Assembly: GCF_000242595.2 (NCBI RefSeq) | Contig: NC_017098.1 | Span: 1,302,001 to 1,366,000, forward strand | DNA from: Spirochaeta africana DSM 8902 | GTDB taxonomy: Bacteria; Spirochaetota; Spirochaetia; DSM-27196; DSM-8902 | Length of the DNA stretch: 64,000 bases | Direction: 5' to 3' | Shown: piece after piece, positions 43,948 to 55,432 of the stretch | How the letters are laid out: the number at the start of each line of letters is the position of its first letter | Position numbering within the stretch: the stretch's first letter is position 1 | Notes under the pieces: model-generated | The model's input: only the letters and a program-made list of their open reading frames with translations | Database searches by the model: none | Told to the model about the DNA's origin: nothing | Translations under genes and position numbers: made by a program

Positions 43948-45945
43948 ATGTTCAGCTTCGACGAGTCTTACGAACCCTATCCCGTGCCCGATAACACCCA
44001 TCCTCTCGGCTGCAGCTACCGATCCGGAGCCGCCGTTTTTTCGCTCTGGTCGCCGGATGCCGATGATGTGCTGCTGCATCTGTACCACCCGGGTGAATCC
44101 GAACCGACGACGGTCCACCGACTGCAGTATAACCCGCAGAACGGCGTCTGGAGCTCGGCTGAGCCTGTGGCCGATTGTCTCGGGATGGCCTATACCTATG
44201 TTGTAGCGCGACATGGTCACAAACATGAGTGTCTTGATCCGTATGCCATCGCCATGGAACCCACCCGACTCCCGTCGGACCGGCAGCTGAGATCCTCCGG
44301 CCGAGGGATTGTAGTCGACCCGGTAGAACTCGCAGGGTATGCTGCTGCCCCGATGGCGACAGCGGTTCCCCCGGAGCAGACCGTCATTTACGAGGTTCAT
44401 GTACGCGACTTCACCATTGCAGCCGCCACCGATGCCAAGCCAGGAACCTTTGCAGCCTTTCGCGAACGTATTCCGTATCTGCAGGATCTTGGTATTACCC
44501 ATGTTCAACTGTTACCGGTCTGGAAATCAGCATTTATAGATGAGATGCAGCAGGCATATGAGCATACCGGCAGAACCCACGGCAACAACTATAACTGGGG
44601 ATATGACCCGCAAAATTATTTTTCCGTGAACGGATGGCTGAGCACGGATCCGACCGATCCCACTGCGGGTATTCGTGAGCTTGCATCATTGATAAACGAT
44701 CTTCACCAGGCCGGAATCGGGGTAATATTCGATGTGGTCTATAATCATATGGGTGATGCGCGGTTTCTGGAAGACATCGTGCCGCACTATTTCTTCCGAC
44801 GCGATATTGCCGGCGAGTTTACCAGCAACAGCGGCTGCGGCAATGATATTGCCAGCTGTCGGCAGATGGCCCGGCGCCTTATCCACGATTCATTGTGCTA
44901 TATCGCGGAAACATTTGGCGCCGACGGCTTTCGCTTTGATCTTATGGGGCTGATTGACAGTGAAACCATCCTGCAAGCCAAACACACCGTTCAGCAAAAG
45001 ACCGGGCGACAGCTGCTTTTTCTCGGAGAGGGCTGGCGCATGTACAACGGGCCGGAAGGCACCCGAGCGCTGGATCAGGATTTCCTGACCGAGACCGACG
45101 AGGTTGCGGTCTTCAGTGATGAACTCAGAGATCTGCTGAAAGCCGGCGGACTTGCCGAGGAAGGGAACGGTTTTGTGACCGATCTGCCGGTAGATACCCG
45201 CCAGCTGTATCATAACCTTGTGGGCGATCCACAGAACTACTTTCGCAGTATGACACCGGGGTGTGTTGTCAACTACATCGCTGCCCACGATGGTCTTACC
45301 CTGCATGACTCGATTATCCACAATAGCCGACTGGATCCGGGCAATCCGCAAGATCGTGAATCGCTGCGCCGACGCATACTGATGGCCAATTTTCTGCTAC
45401 TGACCAGCCAGGGGATTACATTTTTACATGCCGGCCAGGAACGTGGCCGCAGCAAGCATATCCCCAGTCATCAGGAGAAATGTATCGGGCAGTTCGTCCA
45501 TGATTCCTACAACTCTGATGACAGGGTCAACCAGTTCGTCTGGGAGCTCGACGAATGGCAGCAGCAGCTGCTGACCTACACCCGAAGCCTGATACACCTG
45601 CGACGAAGCGAGGATATCTTTGCCATCGGGGATCACAGTCGTATCTACCGGGCAGCAGAGTATGTTGACACCGGTGTCGGGACGGCGGTAGCCTATGGAT
45701 TGCGAAAAGATCGTGCAGAGCTGTACCTGATTATGGCCAATGCCGCAGTGGATCCGGTAACAATCGCATTGCCCGATCAGCTGTGCGGCATTGATACCCA
45801 CACCGCGCAGCGCACGGTAGTGGTCGATACCGCCCGGGTCAGCGCTGACGGGATCGAGCGGCCGGAAGGTCTGCTGCTGCAGGCAGATGCGGTTACGCTT
45901 GAGGGGCTGTCCTGGACAATGCTGCGGGTGGGCTGTATGTACTGA
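43948..45945 (+). CDS. pulA: Type I pullulanase / GH13 alpha-glucan debranching enzyme
   Basis: A 665-residue glycoside hydrolase that cuts alpha-1,6 bonds in pullulan or branched glucans. An N-terminal CBM48-like domain (about 20-110) precedes the catalytic barrel with the type I pullulanase signature NYNWGYDP, DVVYNHMGD, GFRFDLMG (nucleophile Asp331), LGEGW (acid/base Glu361) and AAHDGLT (Asp448). There is no signal peptide, so it should act on intracellular glycogen or imported maltodextrins. GTG 43939 is an alternative start; neither has a Shine-Dalgarno. The stop TGA is the first three bases of the adjoining IS terminal repeat. Confidence 0.92.
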   Translation: MFSFDESYEPYPVPDNTHPLGCSYRSGAAVFSLWSPDADDVLLHLYHPGESEPTTVHRLQYNPQNGVWSSAEPVADCLGMAYTYVVARHGHKHECLDPYAIAMEPTRLPSDRQLRSSGRGIVVDPVELAGYAAAPMATAVPPEQTVIYEVHVRDFTIAAATDAKPGTFAAFRERIPYLQDLGITHVQLLPVWKSAFIDEMQQAYEHTGRTHGNNYNWGYDPQNYFSVNGWLSTDPTDPTAGIRELASLINDLHQAGIGVIFDVVYNHMGDARFLEDIVPHYFFRRDIAGEFTSNSGCGNDIASCRQMARRLIHDSLCYIAETFGADGFRFDLMGLIDSETILQAKHTVQQKTGRQLLFLGEGWRMYNGPEGTRALDQDFLTETDEVAVFSDELRDLLKAGGLAEEGNGFVTDLPVDTRQLYHNLVGDPQNYFRSMTPGCVVNYIAAHDGLTLHDSIIHNSRLDPGNPQDRESLRRRILMANFLLLTSQGITFLHAGQERGRSKHIPSHQEKCIGQFVHDSYNSDDRVNQFVWELDEWQQQLLTYTRSLIHLRRSEDIFAIGDHSRIYRAAEYVDTGVGTAVAYGLRKDRAELYLIMANAAVDPVTIALPDQLCGIDTHTAQRTVVVDTARVSADGIERPEGLLLQADAVTLEGLSWTMLRVGCMY

Positions 45946-45961
45946 CGCCAATTTTGTTTTT
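45942..45961 (+). repeat. Left terminal inverted repeat of the IS
   Basis: Begins CTGACGCCAATTTTGTTTTT; its bases 2-4 are the pullulanase stop codon. Confidence 0.85.
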
Positions 45962-45968
45962 ACCCACT

Positions 45969-47204
45969 TCAGGCCAGCAGATGCGCCGCACGCCTGTCAT
46001 TTCCAGGCATCCGTTTGGTAAGTACTTGCCCGGTAACAGAATCCACTACCGGCGGGTTTTCGTACTGCTGCTGCCAGATGGCACTGATCCAGTCCGGACA
46101 CCCGCGATGTACCGCATGACTGTGCAAAAATCGTCTGGTATGTCTCAGTTTCAACATCCGTTGCGCTACTTGCGACTGACCGAACACGGCAGCCTGGGCA
46201 TGCGTTGCGTCTCCTTCCGTCCTACAGCGACCGGTAATCCGCTCCGGCTTGGCAAAGGTATGCGCTCCAAGCTCAATGGTCACCCGCTGCATAGCCATAT
46301 TCACCTCCCGCGCGAATCGCACTGTCTCACGCACATGATCTGCCATATCCTTGCGAATCTCCCGATCGATATAGTTCACCGGAAAGAGTGGATTCTGCCG
46401 GCTCCGTACAGCCCGGGACGATACGGTGCAATGGGTAAATCCGCCGGCATGCATCGCCTCACGAATCCAGGGAACCTTCTGTAGTGCCCTGGGATATGCG
46501 GTGTGTTGGTCGGTCCACAGCTTCCAGGGGGACGCAGGATTCGAGATGGGAATGCGGTTGTACAGGGCATCAAACACCTGGGCACATGAAGCTACCAGTG
46601 ATCCCCGAGCAGGTTTCCAGTGTATATCGATCATATGACGAAAAACACGCTGGGCAGCAGTCATGCGACCTTTGCGTCGCAGCACTGAGCCGGTAAATCC
46701 ATATACCGAAAGACTTTCACACCCCACCAGGATGTTCAGGTGCAGCGGAAAATACTGAGACCGTACAAAAGATTCAAAACCATCAAAGGCGCAGTTCTCC
46801 CCAAGTGGATGGTCACGGCTTGCCTCCGCATAGAGTGCCAGGTAACTGCGCGCCAGTCGCTGGCACCGGTTCTTTACTAGGCGCCCGCTGGCCATGATTG
46901 CACGGCCAATCTGGCGCTGTCCTGAACTAGCTATCAGCATTGATTCGATACGATCATACTTGATCACTCGGTGCACCCAGTACTGCATCGAGAATGACTG
47001 GGTAGAAAAGGTTTTCCCGCATGCCTTACACCGAAATCTCTGTACCGTACCGTGGGCTTGGGCATAGTGGGTGCCGAACTTGATGTACCATCTATTGTTG
47101 TGCTGCTCTCCAGGGTGATGAAAAGTACAAGCAGGGTTGGTGCAGAATTCGGGGCTGCTTGTCTCCTCGGTTTCTGCCGATGCGGATACGACAAGGTTTT
47201 CCAT
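45969..47204 (-). CDS. IS transposase with N-terminal zinc ribbon
   Basis: A 411-residue protein. An N-terminal zinc ribbon has Cys21, Cys26, Cys59 and Cys62 (CTNPAC and CKAC), followed by a helix-turn-helix-like segment (GRAIMASGRLVKNRCQRL). A DDE-type core is suggested by Asp141 (FDGFESF), Asp232 (LWTDQHTAY) and an acidic residue in NYIDREIRKDMADHVRET. This general plan resembles IS1/IS1595-like transposases, but I cannot place it in a named family. The frame is intact, so the element may be active. The start has AGGAGG immediately upstream, held in a 10-bp hairpin. Confidence 0.82.
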   Translation of the reverse strand: MENLVVSASAETEETSSPEFCTNPACTFHHPGEQHNNRWYIKFGTHYAQAHGTVQRFRCKACGKTFSTQSFSMQYWVHRVIKYDRIESMLIASSGQRQIGRAIMASGRLVKNRCQRLARSYLALYAEASRDHPLGENCAFDGFESFVRSQYFPLHLNILVGCESLSVYGFTGSVLRRKGRMTAAQRVFRHMIDIHWKPARGSLVASCAQVFDALYNRIPISNPASPWKLWTDQHTAYPRALQKVPWIREAMHAGGFTHCTVSSRAVRSRQNPLFPVNYIDREIRKDMADHVRETVRFAREVNMAMQRVTIELGAHTFAKPERITGRCRTEGDATHAQAAVFGQSQVAQRMLKLRHTRRFLHSHAVHRGCPDWISAIWQQQYENPPVVDSVTGQVLTKRMPGNDRRAAHLLA

Positions 47205-47229
47205 GTATTACCTCCTATAAGGTAATACA
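47204..47229 (-). promoter_or_regulatory. Hairpin covering the transposase ribosome-binding site
   Basis: Perfect 10-bp inverted repeat TGTATTACCT/AGGTAATACA with a 6-base loop. In the mRNA it holds part of the AGGAGG site and the A of the start codon, so it should limit transposase translation. Confidence 0.6.
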
Positions 47230-47261
47230 GGAAAAACCACCGTGAAAATTGGTGTAGCAAA

Positions 47262-47281
47262 AAAAATAAAATTGGCGTCAG
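47262..47281 (-). repeat. Right terminal inverted repeat of the IS
   Basis: On the minus strand CTGACGCCAATTTTATTTTT, one difference from the left end; its bases 2-4 are the feoB stop codon. A second AAAATTGG copy lies 21 bases inside (47246-47253). Confidence 0.85.
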
Positions 47282-49062
47282 TGTAGAAGGATCCCCCCCA
47301 GTTGTGCTACTACTGTCCCGCCGGCGAATGCTGTCAGCGTTGTCCCTGCCAGTACAGCGATGGCGATCTTGATTCCCAACTCACGAGCTACTGTTACTAC
47401 CATTGCAATACATGGTATGTACAGCAGCGCTACCACTGAGCCGGTAAGCAGCTGAATCGTAGACAGCTGCATATCCAGCAGCGGAAGCACCGTAAGCTCA
47501 CGACGGACAATCCCCATGAGCAGGGGGACCGATGCCTCACTGGGCAGCAGCAGCAGCCTGGTAACCAGGGGTTCCATAGCGGTGCCGATCCAGTACAGAA
47601 TGCCCAATTCATACAGCACAGCGGCAGCCAGGATCGCCACGATCATCGGGGCTGCCCCGTCGTACAGATAGCTGTGGGCCCGCATCCAGATTTTTTTTCC
47701 GATGATGCGCCCGTTTGGCGGTAACAGCGGCGGCAGTTCGAGCACGATCCCGGGACTGGCGCCGGGGAGTAGGCTGTCGAGCAGGAGTCCTGCAGTGATC
47801 ATAACGGCAATGCTGATCAGGAACACCAGGCCAAGCAGTCCCAGACTGTATTCTGCCAGCAATGCGATGAATGCGCCGGTTTGGGATACACAGGGAACCG
47901 ACAGGCACACCAGCCAGGTTACGATCAGGCGCTGTTTGCGTGACGGCAGTGCCCGGGTCGCCATGATAGCTGGAATTCCGCAGCCATAGCCAAGCAGCAG
48001 CGGGATTACACTGCTGCCGCCTATGCCGAGTCGGCGGAAGATTCCGTCAAGCAGGGCTGCCAGTCGCGGGAGATAGCCGGAGTCTTCAAGCAGTGCAAAG
48101 GCTGCGTAGAAACTGATCACATACGGAAATACCAGGGCAAATGGCCATTCTATACCCTTGATCAATACGCCGTAATCCCCGATCAGTATCGCGGTTGCGG
48201 CATCGGGTAGCGGCAGGGCACTGATCCAGGTGGTGATTGCCGGAAACAGGGCGCCGCGCAGCAGCGGTAGCAGGACAAAACGTCGGAAGCCCATACCGGC
48301 GCCGATTACGACGGTAAACACTGCTGCCATTACGGCCAGGGCGATGGGAATCCCGGGCATTGGCGCAACAAGTCGGTGATCCCAGGTGCGGCGTACGGAG
48401 GTGTGAGAATGGCCGTCGCTGCCACCCAGGGCATCTGCCGCCGCCGCCTCTGCTGCGGGCCATGGATCAAAATCTTCCAGTTCGGGTTCTTTGTTGCGTG
48501 ATGGGGCGTTATATGTCAGCTGTTCAGCGGTAACCTGCCGCAGGGTAGCAAGGCCTTGCCCGGAAACTGCAGATACTGCGACGCACCGGATTCCGTGGAG
48601 ATGGCGCTCAAGGTGTTCAAGATTGATGGTATCAGGATCGACGAGGTCGATTCGATTGACAGCCGCTATAGTCGGAATGCCGAATCGCTGGATCTGCAGC
48701 AACAGCGCGAGCCCTGCCTCAAGGTTCAGGGCATCCAGGACTACGATTACGGCATCGGGGGTGTCGTTCAGCATCTGCACCGCGACTTGTTCGGCCTGGT
48801 TGCCGGCCTGCAGGCTGTAGGTGCCGGGTACATCCTGCAGCTCGCAGTGCTGCCCGCCAAAGGTTGCGGTGCCAGCGGTGTATTCCACCGTGGTGCCGGC
48901 AAAATTGGCGGCGGCAACGTTCAGTCCGGTGAGTTTGCCAAATAGTACGCTTTTGCCGACGTTTGGCATTCCCATCAGCAGTACGCGGTGATTGCCTGCT
49001 GATGCGGCTGTGCCGGGGCCGCAGGACTGGTTGCAGCGATGACAGGAGTGGCGGCGACCCAT
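47278..49062 (-). CDS. feoB: Ferrous iron transport GTPase FeoB (short form)
   Basis: A 594-residue inner-membrane Fe(II) transporter. The N-terminus carries a cysteine cluster CHRCNQSC (residues 7-14), then the G domain: G1 GMPNVGKS (31-38), G2 FAGTT, G3 DVPGTY, G4 NRID. An acidic and His-rich linker leads to the membrane domain with the conserved gate segments (GYGCGIPAIMATRAL, LVCLSVPCVSQTGAF). It is shorter than the common 650-780 residues. ATG 49062 shares a base with the upstream stop (TGATG); the open frame extends 87 codons further but that part is antisense to nothing sensible and overlaps the upstream gene. The stop TGA is provided by the IS right end. Confidence 0.92.
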   Translation of the reverse strand: MGRRHSCHRCNQSCGPGTAASAGNHRVLLMGMPNVGKSVLFGKLTGLNVAAANFAGTTVEYTAGTATFGGQHCELQDVPGTYSLQAGNQAEQVAVQMLNDTPDAVIVVLDALNLEAGLALLLQIQRFGIPTIAAVNRIDLVDPDTINLEHLERHLHGIRCVAVSAVSGQGLATLRQVTAEQLTYNAPSRNKEPELEDFDPWPAAEAAAADALGGSDGHSHTSVRRTWDHRLVAPMPGIPIALAVMAAVFTVVIGAGMGFRRFVLLPLLRGALFPAITTWISALPLPDAATAILIGDYGVLIKGIEWPFALVFPYVISFYAAFALLEDSGYLPRLAALLDGIFRRLGIGGSSVIPLLLGYGCGIPAIMATRALPSRKQRLIVTWLVCLSVPCVSQTGAFIALLAEYSLGLLGLVFLISIAVMITAGLLLDSLLPGASPGIVLELPPLLPPNGRIIGKKIWMRAHSYLYDGAAPMIVAILAAAVLYELGILYWIGTAMEPLVTRLLLLPSEASVPLLMGIVRRELTVLPLLDMQLSTIQLLTGSVVALLYIPCIAMVVTVARELGIKIAIAVLAGTTLTAFAGGTVVAQLGGILLH

Positions 49063-49865
49063 CAGGCTGTTTCCTGCTGTACCCGAATTTGTCGTGCCAG
49101 TCGATGGCAGACCGCAATCCTCCGGTTGCCAATGCAGACGATACAGGGGCCGCCAAAGGCAGCGCGGCCAAGATAGGTTATCTTCTTGCCGGCACGCAGA
49201 GACATGCTGGGAAGATCCCCGTGCTCGGGTACGGTCTTGATGGTAGCGGCCTGGCCGTGCGGCAGATGCAGCAGGCTGCAGTTTCCTCCCTGCTGCCGTA
49301 TATGACTGACGTTGCCGGTCCACCGTCGAAACCGACGGGTGGCTGGGATATGGCAGTGTGCATCAAACTGGGTGCGGGGATACATACGCCTTACCAGTGG
49401 CGAACGGCTACGCCATATCACCACGGTGTTGGGGGACTCACGATGCAGTCGCTGTATGATTGCAGCCGCACATGGCACATGCAGTGATATCCAGACGGCG
49501 TCATACCCCGCAAGATTGATCAGTTCACCCTGAGCACAGCTGCAGCGTACCCGATGATGGTAGTCCGGGGATGTCTGCTGCAGGAACTGCGCCGCTTTGT
49601 CGGCAGCATGCCGGCAGCAGTCGACCGCATCGACCTGGAAACCGGCTTTGGCCAGTGCTGCTGCAGTAAACGGCACGGCACCGGCACCAATGTGCAGCAC
49701 TCGAGCGTCCCGGGGGAGGTCGGCGGCGGCAATTTCCCTTCGGATCATGCTCCGGTAGAACAGATGATCATATACAGTGCGCAGCAGCCGGCTTTGCTGC
49801 AGCAGTTTTCCTTCGAAGATGCCGACAGTGGTACAGGCATTGGTAAGAATATGATTACGCGGCAT
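49062..49865 (-). CDS. Methyltransferase-like domain fused to FeoA
   Basis: A 267-residue fusion. The N-terminal ~190 residues are a Rossmann domain with a SAM-type loop HIGAGAVPFTAAALAKAG (motif I GAGAVPFT at 60-67) and VDAVDCC, very similar in layout to the product of the preceding gene. The C-terminal ~65 residues match FeoA: LPSMSLRAGKKITYLGRAAFGGPCIVCIGNRRIAVCHRLA, the SH3-like domain that assists FeoB. ATG 49865 overlaps the upstream stop by 11 bases; the stop overlaps the feoB start. The Rossmann part has many cysteines. The combination suggests a role tied to iron uptake; the reaction is unknown. Confidence 0.75.
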   Translation of the reverse strand: MPRNHILTNACTTVGIFEGKLLQQSRLLRTVYDHLFYRSMIRREIAAADLPRDARVLHIGAGAVPFTAAALAKAGFQVDAVDCCRHAADKAAQFLQQTSPDYHHRVRCSCAQGELINLAGYDAVWISLHVPCAAAIIQRLHRESPNTVVIWRSRSPLVRRMYPRTQFDAHCHIPATRRFRRWTGNVSHIRQQGGNCSLLHLPHGQAATIKTVPEHGDLPSMSLRAGKKITYLGRAAFGGPCIVCIGNRRIAVCHRLARQIRVQQETA

Positions 49866-52304: not shown

Positions 52305-52346
52305 TGGCACACAATACAGCAATGAAACACAGAAGTGAGGTTTAAT

Positions 52347-53597
52347 ATGTCCGAGAATACCGTGACCGAAGTCGTTCAGGGTGTGTACCGCCTGTCTGCC
52401 AACGTTGACAATATTCTTTTCGAGGGTATCTGGCCAATCCCGAAGGGGGTTGCCATGAACTCATATATCGTCAAGGGCGATAAGGTGGCAATTATCGATG
52501 GGGTGTGTGAATGGGACGGGGTGCCGGAAACCCTGTTTGCGCAGCTTGAGCAGATGCAGGTTAAGGTGGAGGATATTGACTACGTTATCCTGAACCACCT
52601 TGAACCTGACCATACCGGCTGGCTCAATGCATTCAAGAAGATTCGCAGTGATTTTACCATAGTCACCAGCAAGAAGGGTGCCGCAGTAGCCGAGGCGTTC
52701 TACGGGATTACCGAGAATATCCATACCGTCTCCAGTGGCGATGAAATCGATCTTGGACAGGGCAGGGTGCTGCAGTTCTACGAGATCCCGAACGTACACT
52801 GGCCGGAAACTATTGCCACCTATGATACCAGGAGCAAGACACTTTTTCCCTGCGACGCATTCGGATCGTTCGGATCGGTTTCAAGCAGTGCCCCGTACGA
52901 TGATCAGCTGACGCAGGATGAGATTGATTTCTTCGAGGATGAGGCGCTGCGCTACTACGCGAACATCGTGGGTGCGTTCAGCCTGCCAACCAGGAAGGCG
53001 ATCGAGAAGCTCGGGCCGCTGGATATTCAGATCATTGCTCCAGGACACGGGATCGTCTGGCGCAAGGACCCGGCCAAGATCGTGAACGACTATATCCGGT
53101 ATGTGAGCTACTCCAAAGGCCCTGCCAAGCCCCACGTTACCGTTATCTGGGGCAGCATGTACGGCATGACCGAACAGGGTGTGCAGCCGGTGGTCGAAGG
53201 TCTTGAGAGTGCTGGTGTTACCGTGCATGTCCATCGGATCCCTGAATCAAATATTTCCTACATCCTCAAGGATGTATGGCAGTCGACCGGGGTTGTTCTT
53301 GGTATGCCTACCTATGAATACAAGATGTTTCCACCGATGGTGGCGGCCCTGGATGAAATCGGCAAGAAAAAGGCCCTGAACCGCAAGGCTTTCCGGTTCG
53401 GCTCGTACGGTTGGTCGGGCGGTGCCCAGAAAGAGCTTGATGAAATTACTGAACGGCTGAAAATGAACTGGGATTTCATCGAGCCCGTCGAGTTCAAGGG
53501 TGCTCCCTCCGCGGCTGAGCTTGAGCTTATCCGTACTCGTGGCCGGGAACTCGGTGAGGCGGTTGTACAAGCCGTCAATGCTGCCAGCGGTTCATAA
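52347..53597 (+). CDS. Flavodiiron protein (A-type flavoprotein; oxygen or NO reductase)
   Basis: A 416-residue two-domain protein that reduces O2 to water or NO to N2O in anaerobes. The metallo-beta-lactamase-like domain carries diiron ligands in LNHLEPDHTGW, the His of NVHWPETI, Asp in FPCDAFGSFG and His in APGHGIVW. The flavodoxin-like domain starts near residue 255 with VTVIWGSMYGMTEQG binding FMN. No rubredoxin domain is fused. Start ATG 52347 has GTGAGG upstream. Its neighbour is a hemerythrin-bearing chemoreceptor, so both likely serve oxygen defence. Confidence 0.93.
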   Translation: MSENTVTEVVQGVYRLSANVDNILFEGIWPIPKGVAMNSYIVKGDKVAIIDGVCEWDGVPETLFAQLEQMQVKVEDIDYVILNHLEPDHTGWLNAFKKIRSDFTIVTSKKGAAVAEAFYGITENIHTVSSGDEIDLGQGRVLQFYEIPNVHWPETIATYDTRSKTLFPCDAFGSFGSVSSSAPYDDQLTQDEIDFFEDEALRYYANIVGAFSLPTRKAIEKLGPLDIQIIAPGHGIVWRKDPAKIVNDYIRYVSYSKGPAKPHVTVIWGSMYGMTEQGVQPVVEGLESAGVTVHVHRIPESNISYILKDVWQSTGVVLGMPTYEYKMFPPMVAALDEIGKKKALNRKAFRFGSYGWSGGAQKELDEITERLKMNWDFIEPVEFKGAPSAAELELIRTRGRELGEAVVQAVNAASGS

Positions 53598-53647
53598 TTG
53601 CAGTCTGCAACCGGGCCGGTGAAACCATGCCCGAACAGGTAAGTTAC

Positions 53648-53724
53648 TGATGCCAGTTTTGTTGTTCGGGGTCTCAGCGGGCTGCTGTCGGCCTCTCAGA
53701 GGGCAAACAACAAAACTGGCGTCA
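53648..53724. mobile_element. Miniature inverted-repeat element related to the IS at 45942
   Basis: A 77-bp sequence with 19-bp terminal inverted repeats: left TGATGCCAGTTTTGTTGTT, right (complement) TGACGCCAGTTTTGTTGTT. These match the IS ends (TGACGCCAATTTTGTTTTT) at 17 of 19 positions on the right side. There is no coding capacity, as expected for a MITE moved in trans. No target duplication is evident. As RNA it could fold into a long hairpin after the flavodiiron gene. Confidence 0.65.
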
Positions 53725-53740
53725 CCAGGAAAGGGGTACC

Positions 53741-55432
53741 ATGAAAACTGGTCAACAGGGGTTCGTATTACGTGTCATAGCGCGGTTGGTAAGGGTGTCT
53801 GCCCCGCCGGCTGCTGGCGGCGGGCTGGTCCTGGCAGCCCAGGCTATGGGTGGACTGGCCGCAGCGGCGATCGCGATTGTGGTGATGTGTGCCGCGGCGG
53901 TGGTGCGTGATGCACGCGCACGGGCTGCTGCAGCGGTGAAAGATCTCGACACCCCCGATACCCGGGCAATACCTGTCCGGGAGCTGACCGAACCGGCAGG
54001 TATCGCTGCGTATCTTGAACAGCAGGGAACCCGGCAGCGCGAGGCCCTGTTCGAGACAACCGGCAGATTTGATGACGCTGCAACTGCGCTGGGAGAGGTG
54101 GCTGGTGCGACTGAATCCCAGTTGCGAGCGGCGGCAGAAAGTGCCGAGGCGGTCATCGAGATTATGTCGGGAAGCCAGGTGCTGATGCAGCAGCTTGAGC
54201 AACAGCGCAACTCGGTAGATGACACCACCGCAGCGATCGAACAGATGTTTCAGACTATCCAGTCGATTACCGGAAATGCTGAGCACATACAGGACCGGAT
54301 GCAGGAGTTGCGTGGGGTCGCCGAAGAGGGCCGGGAGACCCTTGGACAGCTGAATCAGGCGGTCCAGCAGGCTTCGCAGCAGTCACAGGCACTGGAGCAG
54401 GCCAACAAGCTGATCGATGATATCGCTGCGCAGACCCATCTGCTGGCGATGAATGCTGCCATAGAAGCTGCCAAGGCCGGCAGTTATGGGGCCGGCTTTG
54501 CGGTGGTTGCCGGCGAGATACGCAGCCTTGCAGCCGAGGCTGCTGCCGGGGCTGCGCGATCACAGGAGGGGCTGACGCAGCTGGACAGCTCTATTGTGCG
54601 CATGGCACAGGATTTCTCCGGCATGAGCGAACTGTTTGGCAGGCTGGAGTCGCATATCGATACGGTCTACGACCATCAGCATGCCACCATGGTTGCACTG
54701 CAGGAACAGCGTGAAGGCAGCAATCATATACTGCAGTCGGCCCAGCAGCTGCAGCGCAGTGTGGAAACGGTTGACGAACAGCAGCGACGGATTCATTCCG
54801 CCACCGAGCGCACCAGCAGTCTGATTACCGAGCTTCACTCCATGAGCAATGCAAATCATCACAGGGCGCAGGAGCTTACCGGTACTGCGGCTCAGCTCCA
54901 GCAGATCGTAGAGGTGTCTGCCGGCTGGTCACTGAGCATAGAGCAGGGGCTTTCGGTGCTGCATGCCGTGTTCTCGCGGTATCCGGTGCCGGCATCATCG
55001 GATCTGGATACCCGCTTCTTTCGCTGGACAGAGGATCTGGCGACCAACGTGGAACTTTTTGATCAGCAGCACCAGGAACTGATCCGGATTCTCAATGATA
55101 TGCATCGTGCGGTTATCGATGGTGAAGGGCGTGCCCGGGTGGGCTCTATTCTCGATCGGCTGCTGGAATACACCGATTATCATTTTACCTGCGAGGAGCG
55201 TAATTTCCAGCAGCACGGGTATCCGGAGTGCGAACTGCATACCCAGATCCACCGGAAGCTGGTGGCTACCGCAATGGAGCTGAAGCAGCGATTTGATGAG
55301 GGGCGCAGCAGTGTGGTGCTGGAGACACTGCAGATCCTGCGCTCCTGGCTGATCAATCATATCCGGGAGTGCGACGGGAAATACAAGCGGTTTTTCGAAA
55401 ACAAAACCGTTGTTGCGGGCGAGGCGTCCTGA
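53741..55432 (+). CDS. Methyl-accepting chemotaxis protein with C-terminal hemerythrin domain
   Basis: A 563-residue receptor. One membrane segment (about 25-55) is followed by a cytoplasmic signalling domain with the hairpin tip IDDIAAQTHLLAMNAAIEAA and GFAVVAGEIRSLA (about 224-266). The last ~130 residues form a bacteriohemerythrin domain: FDQQHQELIRIL (about 438-449), YHFTCEERNF (about 480-489), LHTQIHRK and WLINHIRECDGKY supply the His and acidic diiron ligands. This predicts an O2 or redox sensor feeding the chemotaxis pathway. There is no periplasmic sensor domain. The start has AGGAAAGGGG upstream. The tip has His where Asn is usual (QTHLLA for QTNLLA). Confidence 0.92.
   Translation: MKTGQQGFVLRVIARLVRVSAPPAAGGGLVLAAQAMGGLAAAAIAIVVMCAAAVVRDARARAAAAVKDLDTPDTRAIPVRELTEPAGIAAYLEQQGTRQREALFETTGRFDDAATALGEVAGATESQLRAAAESAEAVIEIMSGSQVLMQQLEQQRNSVDDTTAAIEQMFQTIQSITGNAEHIQDRMQELRGVAEEGRETLGQLNQAVQQASQQSQALEQANKLIDDIAAQTHLLAMNAAIEAAKAGSYGAGFAVVAGEIRSLAAEAAAGAARSQEGLTQLDSSIVRMAQDFSGMSELFGRLESHIDTVYDHQHATMVALQEQREGSNHILQSAQQLQRSVETVDEQQRRIHSATERTSSLITELHSMSNANHHRAQELTGTAAQLQQIVEVSAGWSLSIEQGLSVLHAVFSRYPVPASSDLDTRFFRWTEDLATNVELFDQQHQELIRILNDMHRAVIDGEGRARVGSILDRLLEYTDYHFTCEERNFQQHGYPECELHTQIHRKLVATAMELKQRFDEGRSSVVLETLQILRSWLINHIRECDGKYKRFFENKTVVAGEAS

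Follow-up and report, generated by a model that had tools for sequence, protein, structure and literature searches.

Prokaryotic MITEs (miniature inverted-repeat elements) have inverted repeats of 4-30 bp, QMITE of Coxiella and Chunjie of Geobacter being examples (PMC10969869). As described there, such elements are short and noncoding, carry terminal inverted repeats, lie dispersed in intergenic DNA, share their ends with a resident insertion sequence (IS), form a long hairpin as RNA and are flanked by repeats that fade with age, and in each of these respects the family described below is alike (PMC10969869). The family is unlike these in being very short (77 bp), in not being AT-rich (G+C 43/77), in its low copy number of nine and in its degenerate target duplications. 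The REP elements of the GTAG and CGTC superfamilies are likewise short dispersed extragenic palindromes, with CGTC-tagged REPs reported from Spirochaetes and with tags that are unpaired at one end (PMC3733652). Literature searches lying mostly outside the subscription journals, and to that extent weak, returned no MITE of Spirochaeta africana, no miniature inverted-repeat element of Spirochaeta, only off-topic papers on S. africana insertion sequences, and no IS with a preference for terminators or stop codons of the type discussed below.

The window is the whole stretch of S. africana DSM 8902 DNA that was analysed, 64,000 nucleotides in length (NC_017098.1, positions 1,302,001 to 1,366,000), and its features are collected in Table 1. 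A reading made from the letters of the window (the sequence-only reading) had described a 77-bp MITE with the ends of an IS in the same window, lying between a flavodiiron gene and an MCP-hemerythrin gene, a location that agrees with the gene coordinates. The 19-bp terminal inverted repeats, which differ from each other at 1 base, are real, in that the 19-mer end repeat with up to three mismatches found three matches in the window (both MITE arms and the IS left end at 45943) and none in 100 shuffles. The differences from the IS ends had also been named correctly, as A/G at position 9, T/G at position 17 and a C-to-T change at position 4 of the left arm, to which can be added an A at position 14 of the IS right end and a G at position 17 in one IS copy. 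The claimed long RNA hairpin, with arms of 33 nt each and 79% complementarity, was confirmed by its folding energy, which was -42.9 kcal/mol with flanks (z -4.6) and -41.2 for the 77-mer alone (z -6.8).

Table 1. Features of the window around the element and its probable mobiliser, with the related short elements of two other genomes.
Feature	Position	Strand	Remarks
MITE, window copy	53648..53724	.	77 bp; nine genome copies and alignment of copies
Left terminal inverted repeat	53648..53666	+	one C-to-T change, base 4
Right terminal inverted repeat	53706..53724	-	with next 12 bases inwards resembles IS left end
TAC outside left repeat	53645..53647	+	matches TA[C/G] beginning the ends of related ISs
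Candidate left target duplication	53636..53643	+	CAGGTAAG; best flank direct repeat, 7/8
Candidate right target duplication	53726..53733	+	CAGGAAAG; pairs with CAGGTAAG
IS with matching ends, probable mobiliser	45943..47280	-	ends 45943-45961 and 47262-47280; one of four copies
Transposase gene of IS, 411 aa	45969..47204	-	open frame, alignment of members
FeoB-type gene	47278-49323	-	right of IS, stop on IS-repeat TGA
504-codon frame			left of IS, stop on IS-repeat TGA
Flavodiiron-type gene	52335..53597	+	metallo-beta-lactamase and flavodoxin domains; upstream of MITE
MCP-hemerythrin gene	53741..55432	+	ATG 16 bases past last base of MITE, AGGAAAGGGG between
Short elements with G070 IS ends			121-290 bp; L227, L229, L231, L232, L233 (G070), L228 (G090)

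Multiple dispersed copies with the same ends had been set as the check for a MITE family and a single copy as its refutation. Nine full-length matches (76-87 bp) to the 77-mer are present in its own genome (3,285,855 bases, one contig), with identities to the window copy of 100, 91, 90, 88, 86, 83, 82, 76 and 76%, two of the nine being 87 bp and one 76 bp in length, scattered over unrelated places of the 3.29-Mb chromosome. In keeping with this, when the nine copies were made into a covariance model and both strands were scanned with it, these nine were recovered and no further hit had an E-value below 2. An end-motif pattern had 29 matches genome-wide, whereas the reversed pattern used as a control had none, and the 25 genome matches with up to two mismatches could all be assigned to MITEs (eight of the nine), to the four ISs or to one half-site. 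Two solo half-sites of the end repeat were observed, one with two mismatches where a possible signal-peptide frame begins (L073, 1501-1519) and one in which the likeness runs on into the MITE core (L075, 1501-1530). Since nine dispersed copies share their ends with a four-copy IS, the proposal of a MITE with resident IS ends is supported: each element is below 500 bp with no transposase gene, has 19-bp inverted repeats and shares its ends, apart from positions 9 and 17, with an autonomous element of the same genome. Positions 53648-53724 are thus a member of a MITE family of familiar type. MITE copies were absent from the other 99 genomes of a relatives search of 100 (none of the 99 of the same family, and none a close relative in which an empty site could be seen), one end repeat had no exact match in viral contigs, and a plasmid search found no match. 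Over 84,980 species genomes the end-repeat pattern found 18 stretches with one match each in unrelated taxa, where about 8 matches would be expected by chance on a random-base estimate.

By ORF analysis none of the nine copies is coding and all of them lie between genes; the ORF overlaps at L001 and L003 are frames that run through the MITE ahead of a plausible start codon. With a coding share of 89.1% in the 140 kb sampled, nine intergenic sites out of nine would have a probability of 2e-9 under random landing with no selection.

The 1.34-kb IS is present as four copies in the genome, 98-100% identical to the window copy and each with an open 411-aa transposase frame. Pfam gave nothing at cut-off for this transposase, while NCBIfam matched IS1 at 27.6 bits, short of the curated cut-off of 100, and the ISL3 profile scored 15.9 bits against a cut-off of 180. 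Such weak matches recur among the seven aligned transposases (IS1 in 7/7, ISL3 in 6/7) and form the likeness to these two families, from which the resident IS differs in scores far below cut-off and in its single 411-aa reading frame. The alignment has 38 invariant columns, including C21, C26, C59, C62, D141, D232 and D280, the conserved cysteines and aspartates being a putative zinc ribbon and putative catalytic acids. Relatives of the transposase were found in 19 of 392 sampled genomes of the spirochaete phylum, its own included, the full-length ones mostly at 30-42% identity; four distant relatives in viral contigs (21-27% identity) were set aside. A single-sequence structure of the transposase was rejected, with a mean pLDDT of 33.8.

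The inverted repeats of the IS relatives mostly begin TAGTG or TACTG, and in the S. africana genome TA followed by C or G stands just outside TGACGCC at 9/18 MITE flanks and 5/8 IS flanks. Given the TA[C/G]TG starts of the relatives, the true ends probably include three extra TA[C/G] bases, and while the 77-bp element of the sequence-only reading is real, the unit that moves probably extends a few bases further, over about 53644-53725. The two flanks of the same MITE copy share direct repeats more often than mispaired flanks do (set-wide permutation p 0.00095, allowing up to four bases of slack), and a target duplication made by the MITE, now degenerate, is likely. No clean duplication of fixed length was found among the nine MITEs, with two of nine copies having none, and at the four young IS copies the flank direct repeats were not above those of mispaired flanks. 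Direct repeats were also seen in individual IS copies of two other genomes, 10 bp in one G070 copy and 11-12 bp in two G001 copies; these repeats of 10-12 bp (L183, L272 and L275) lie 1-3 bases outside the IS ends, most sister copies being without them.

With high confidence the element can be described as a MITE with a noncoding core and IS-type ends that was very probably moved to nine intergenic sites by the transposase of the resident IS or of a sister version. This transposase would bind the inverted repeats, and the bound MITE would then be carried to these sites, the window copy inserting between the flavodiiron and MCP-hemerythrin genes. Comparison of the ends suggests that one MITE end may be a copy of the IS left end: when read inwards, the right end of the MITE is similar to it over about 31 bases with one gap. 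Beyond the 19-bp repeat this likeness has p 0.0075, in one of four end-to-end comparisons, the other three showing no likeness beyond chance. When the MITE core was compared with the IS by shuffling, 35 of 36 comparisons were not below p 0.05 and one was, and the rest of the core appears to have no recognisable IS derivation.

At position 9 the eight IS ends all have an A and most MITE ends a G, and the MITE copies are far more diverged than the IS copies (76-91% as against 98-100% identity to the window copy), so the present IS need not have moved the MITEs, and the MITE burst is either older than the present IS copies or came about via a sister IS. Another possible mobiliser, if the less probable one, is a sister IS that has since been lost and whose ends had a G at both positions 9 and 17; both of these observations favour it. 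Against it, the first eight end bases are identical in MITE and IS, one end of the resident IS already has a G at 17, the genome retains no other element with ends of this kind, and cross-mobilisation despite a few mismatches is common for MITEs. From the shared ends we infer that the transposase of the resident IS probably moved the MITE.

The hairpin raises the question of a function at the site. A hairpin kept under selection, whether to terminate the flavodiiron transcript or act on its stability or to regulate the MCP-hemerythrin gene from its 5′ side, would account for a strong hairpin in an intergenic gap and for the six of nine MITE copies that lie within 50 bp past a stop codon, but such a role is very improbable. 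An intrinsic terminator would have a GC-rich stem and then a T-tract, and there is no T run past either stem foot on either strand, the sole terminator-pattern match lying inside the stem. Across the nine copies a compensated double change was found in just one of 27 stem pairs, the pairs decaying rather than co-varying, and in the most diverged copy the excess stability of the hairpin is gone (z -0.1). The only Rfam matches to the long hairpin were to microRNAs, all sub-threshold, and these were taken as an artefact. Conservation at the same site in relatives, named in the sequence-only reading as evidence for a terminator, was not seen either in the 99 genomes or at the flavodiiron loci. The flavodiiron gene itself is conserved (49/51 genomes, its own included), and at 15 other flavodiiron loci the downstream stretch was different and had no MITE repeat (one having only about 30 bases there). 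No MCP-hemerythrin gene directly followed the flavodiiron gene at these 15 loci, three of which had a match to the hemerythrin part elsewhere. At L235, one of the 15, nine bases identical to those that begin the end repeat, with no second arm, lie about 75 bases past the flavodiiron stop and are taken as a chance match.

With the ribosome-binding-like AGGAAAGGGG and the ATG (53741) of the MCP gene immediately past its end, the hairpin could alter the MCP mRNA, and by this placement an effect on expression of the MCP-hemerythrin gene is possible; nothing was found that points to selection on the hairpin for such an effect, and control of the neighbouring genes by the hairpin is speculation. On balance the inverted repeats of the MITE account for the hairpin, which is best taken as their by-product. 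A REP-type origin, with a RAYT (Y1) transposase as the mobiliser, is very improbable, for although the element is a short dispersed extragenic palindrome that ends in CGTCA, both its ends are fully paired and match a TIR-type IS, unlike the REP end with its unpaired tag (PMC3733652), and no Y1 transposase was found in its genome by a search that was positive in 5/14 control genomes.

ISs related to the resident IS have also made MITEs. In another spirochaete genome (G070), where a related IS has inserted about 13 times, there are also short elements that share the ends of this IS, at least five in number and 128-290 bp in length. For one of these elements an orthologue of 121 bp is present in G090. 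This pair (L227 and L228) shares its flanks, which places the insertion before the two species split.

The position of the copies relative to genes may point to a target preference. Six of the nine MITEs (L001, L002, L003, L004, L007 and L009) lie within 50 bp past a stop codon, as against 16% of noncoding positions (p 0.001, with the 50-bp threshold picked afterwards), and at L007 the upstream frame ends on the MITE's own TGA. At the IS in the window the TGA of its repeats is the stop codon of both convergent neighbours. When gene ends were counted by flank as ORFs of at least 120 codons whose stop falls between -3 and 15 nt from the element end, they were found at 6/8 flanks for the own IS, 7/21 for G070, 4/8 for G001 and 3/18 for the own MITEs, over a background of 0.8-2%. 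Counted by insertion, using codon-scored gene calls with the stop at -3 to 12 nt, the figures were 3/4 for the own IS, 2/4 for G001, 9/15 rows for G070 (13 insertions if two interrupted copies are counted once each) and 3/9 for the own MITEs (L006 among them being doubtful, with its ORF on the strand opposite the called gene). The corresponding null was 6-10% of noncoding positions or, weighted by flank motif, 3, 15 and 2% for G000, G070 and G001. Of 17 further loci tried with a looser ORF threshold of 100 codons, those with no or a doubtful repeat being dropped, six of the eight with clear ends had a stop within -3 to 12 nt, L082 among the six being the same insertion as L197. The MITEs of G070 were at gene ends in 4/5 cases (L228 being the orthologous copy in G090 and L230 being without a second end). 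A second related subfamily in G001 gave 2/8, and unrelated control ISs of G001 gave 0/4 and 2/8, a third control group having been dropped for want of clear ends. Among the IS relatives at L173-L201, L145-L148 and L081-L105, the stop codon of a long frame is often no more than about 12 bases from the element, which in several cases lies exactly one base past it, a pattern that is weaker in the second G001 subfamily.

Under a strict criterion, a hairpin with a T-tract within 25 nt of the element end was found at 1/18 own MITE flanks (L006), 0/8 own IS flanks, 3/25 in G070 and 1/9 in G001, as against 0.2-0.45% of all positions. The elements at L177, L179 and L181 (G070), L146 (G001) and L006 (own genome) end 8-18 bases past a terminator-like stem with a T-tract. 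Perhaps terminators are targeted in the relatives. The gene-end bias, uneven between subfamilies, is a lead and not a result, and it is only tentatively suggested that the transposase of this IS group prefers the 3′ ends of genes, at or up to about 12 bases past stop codons, sometimes supplying the stop, or beside terminator T-tracts.

The element in the window belongs to a MITE family for which no print record was found, recognised together with its probable mobiliser, and the analysis indicates an uncurated spirochaete IS group that has been a source of MITEs more than once. This wider IS group may be of more interest than the MITE itself. Were the preference for gene ends true, elements of the group would spread without damaging genes and their MITEs would be safe-haven elements of gene ends; if the bias holds, the group would offer a simple model for how a single-protein transposon finds harmless sites.
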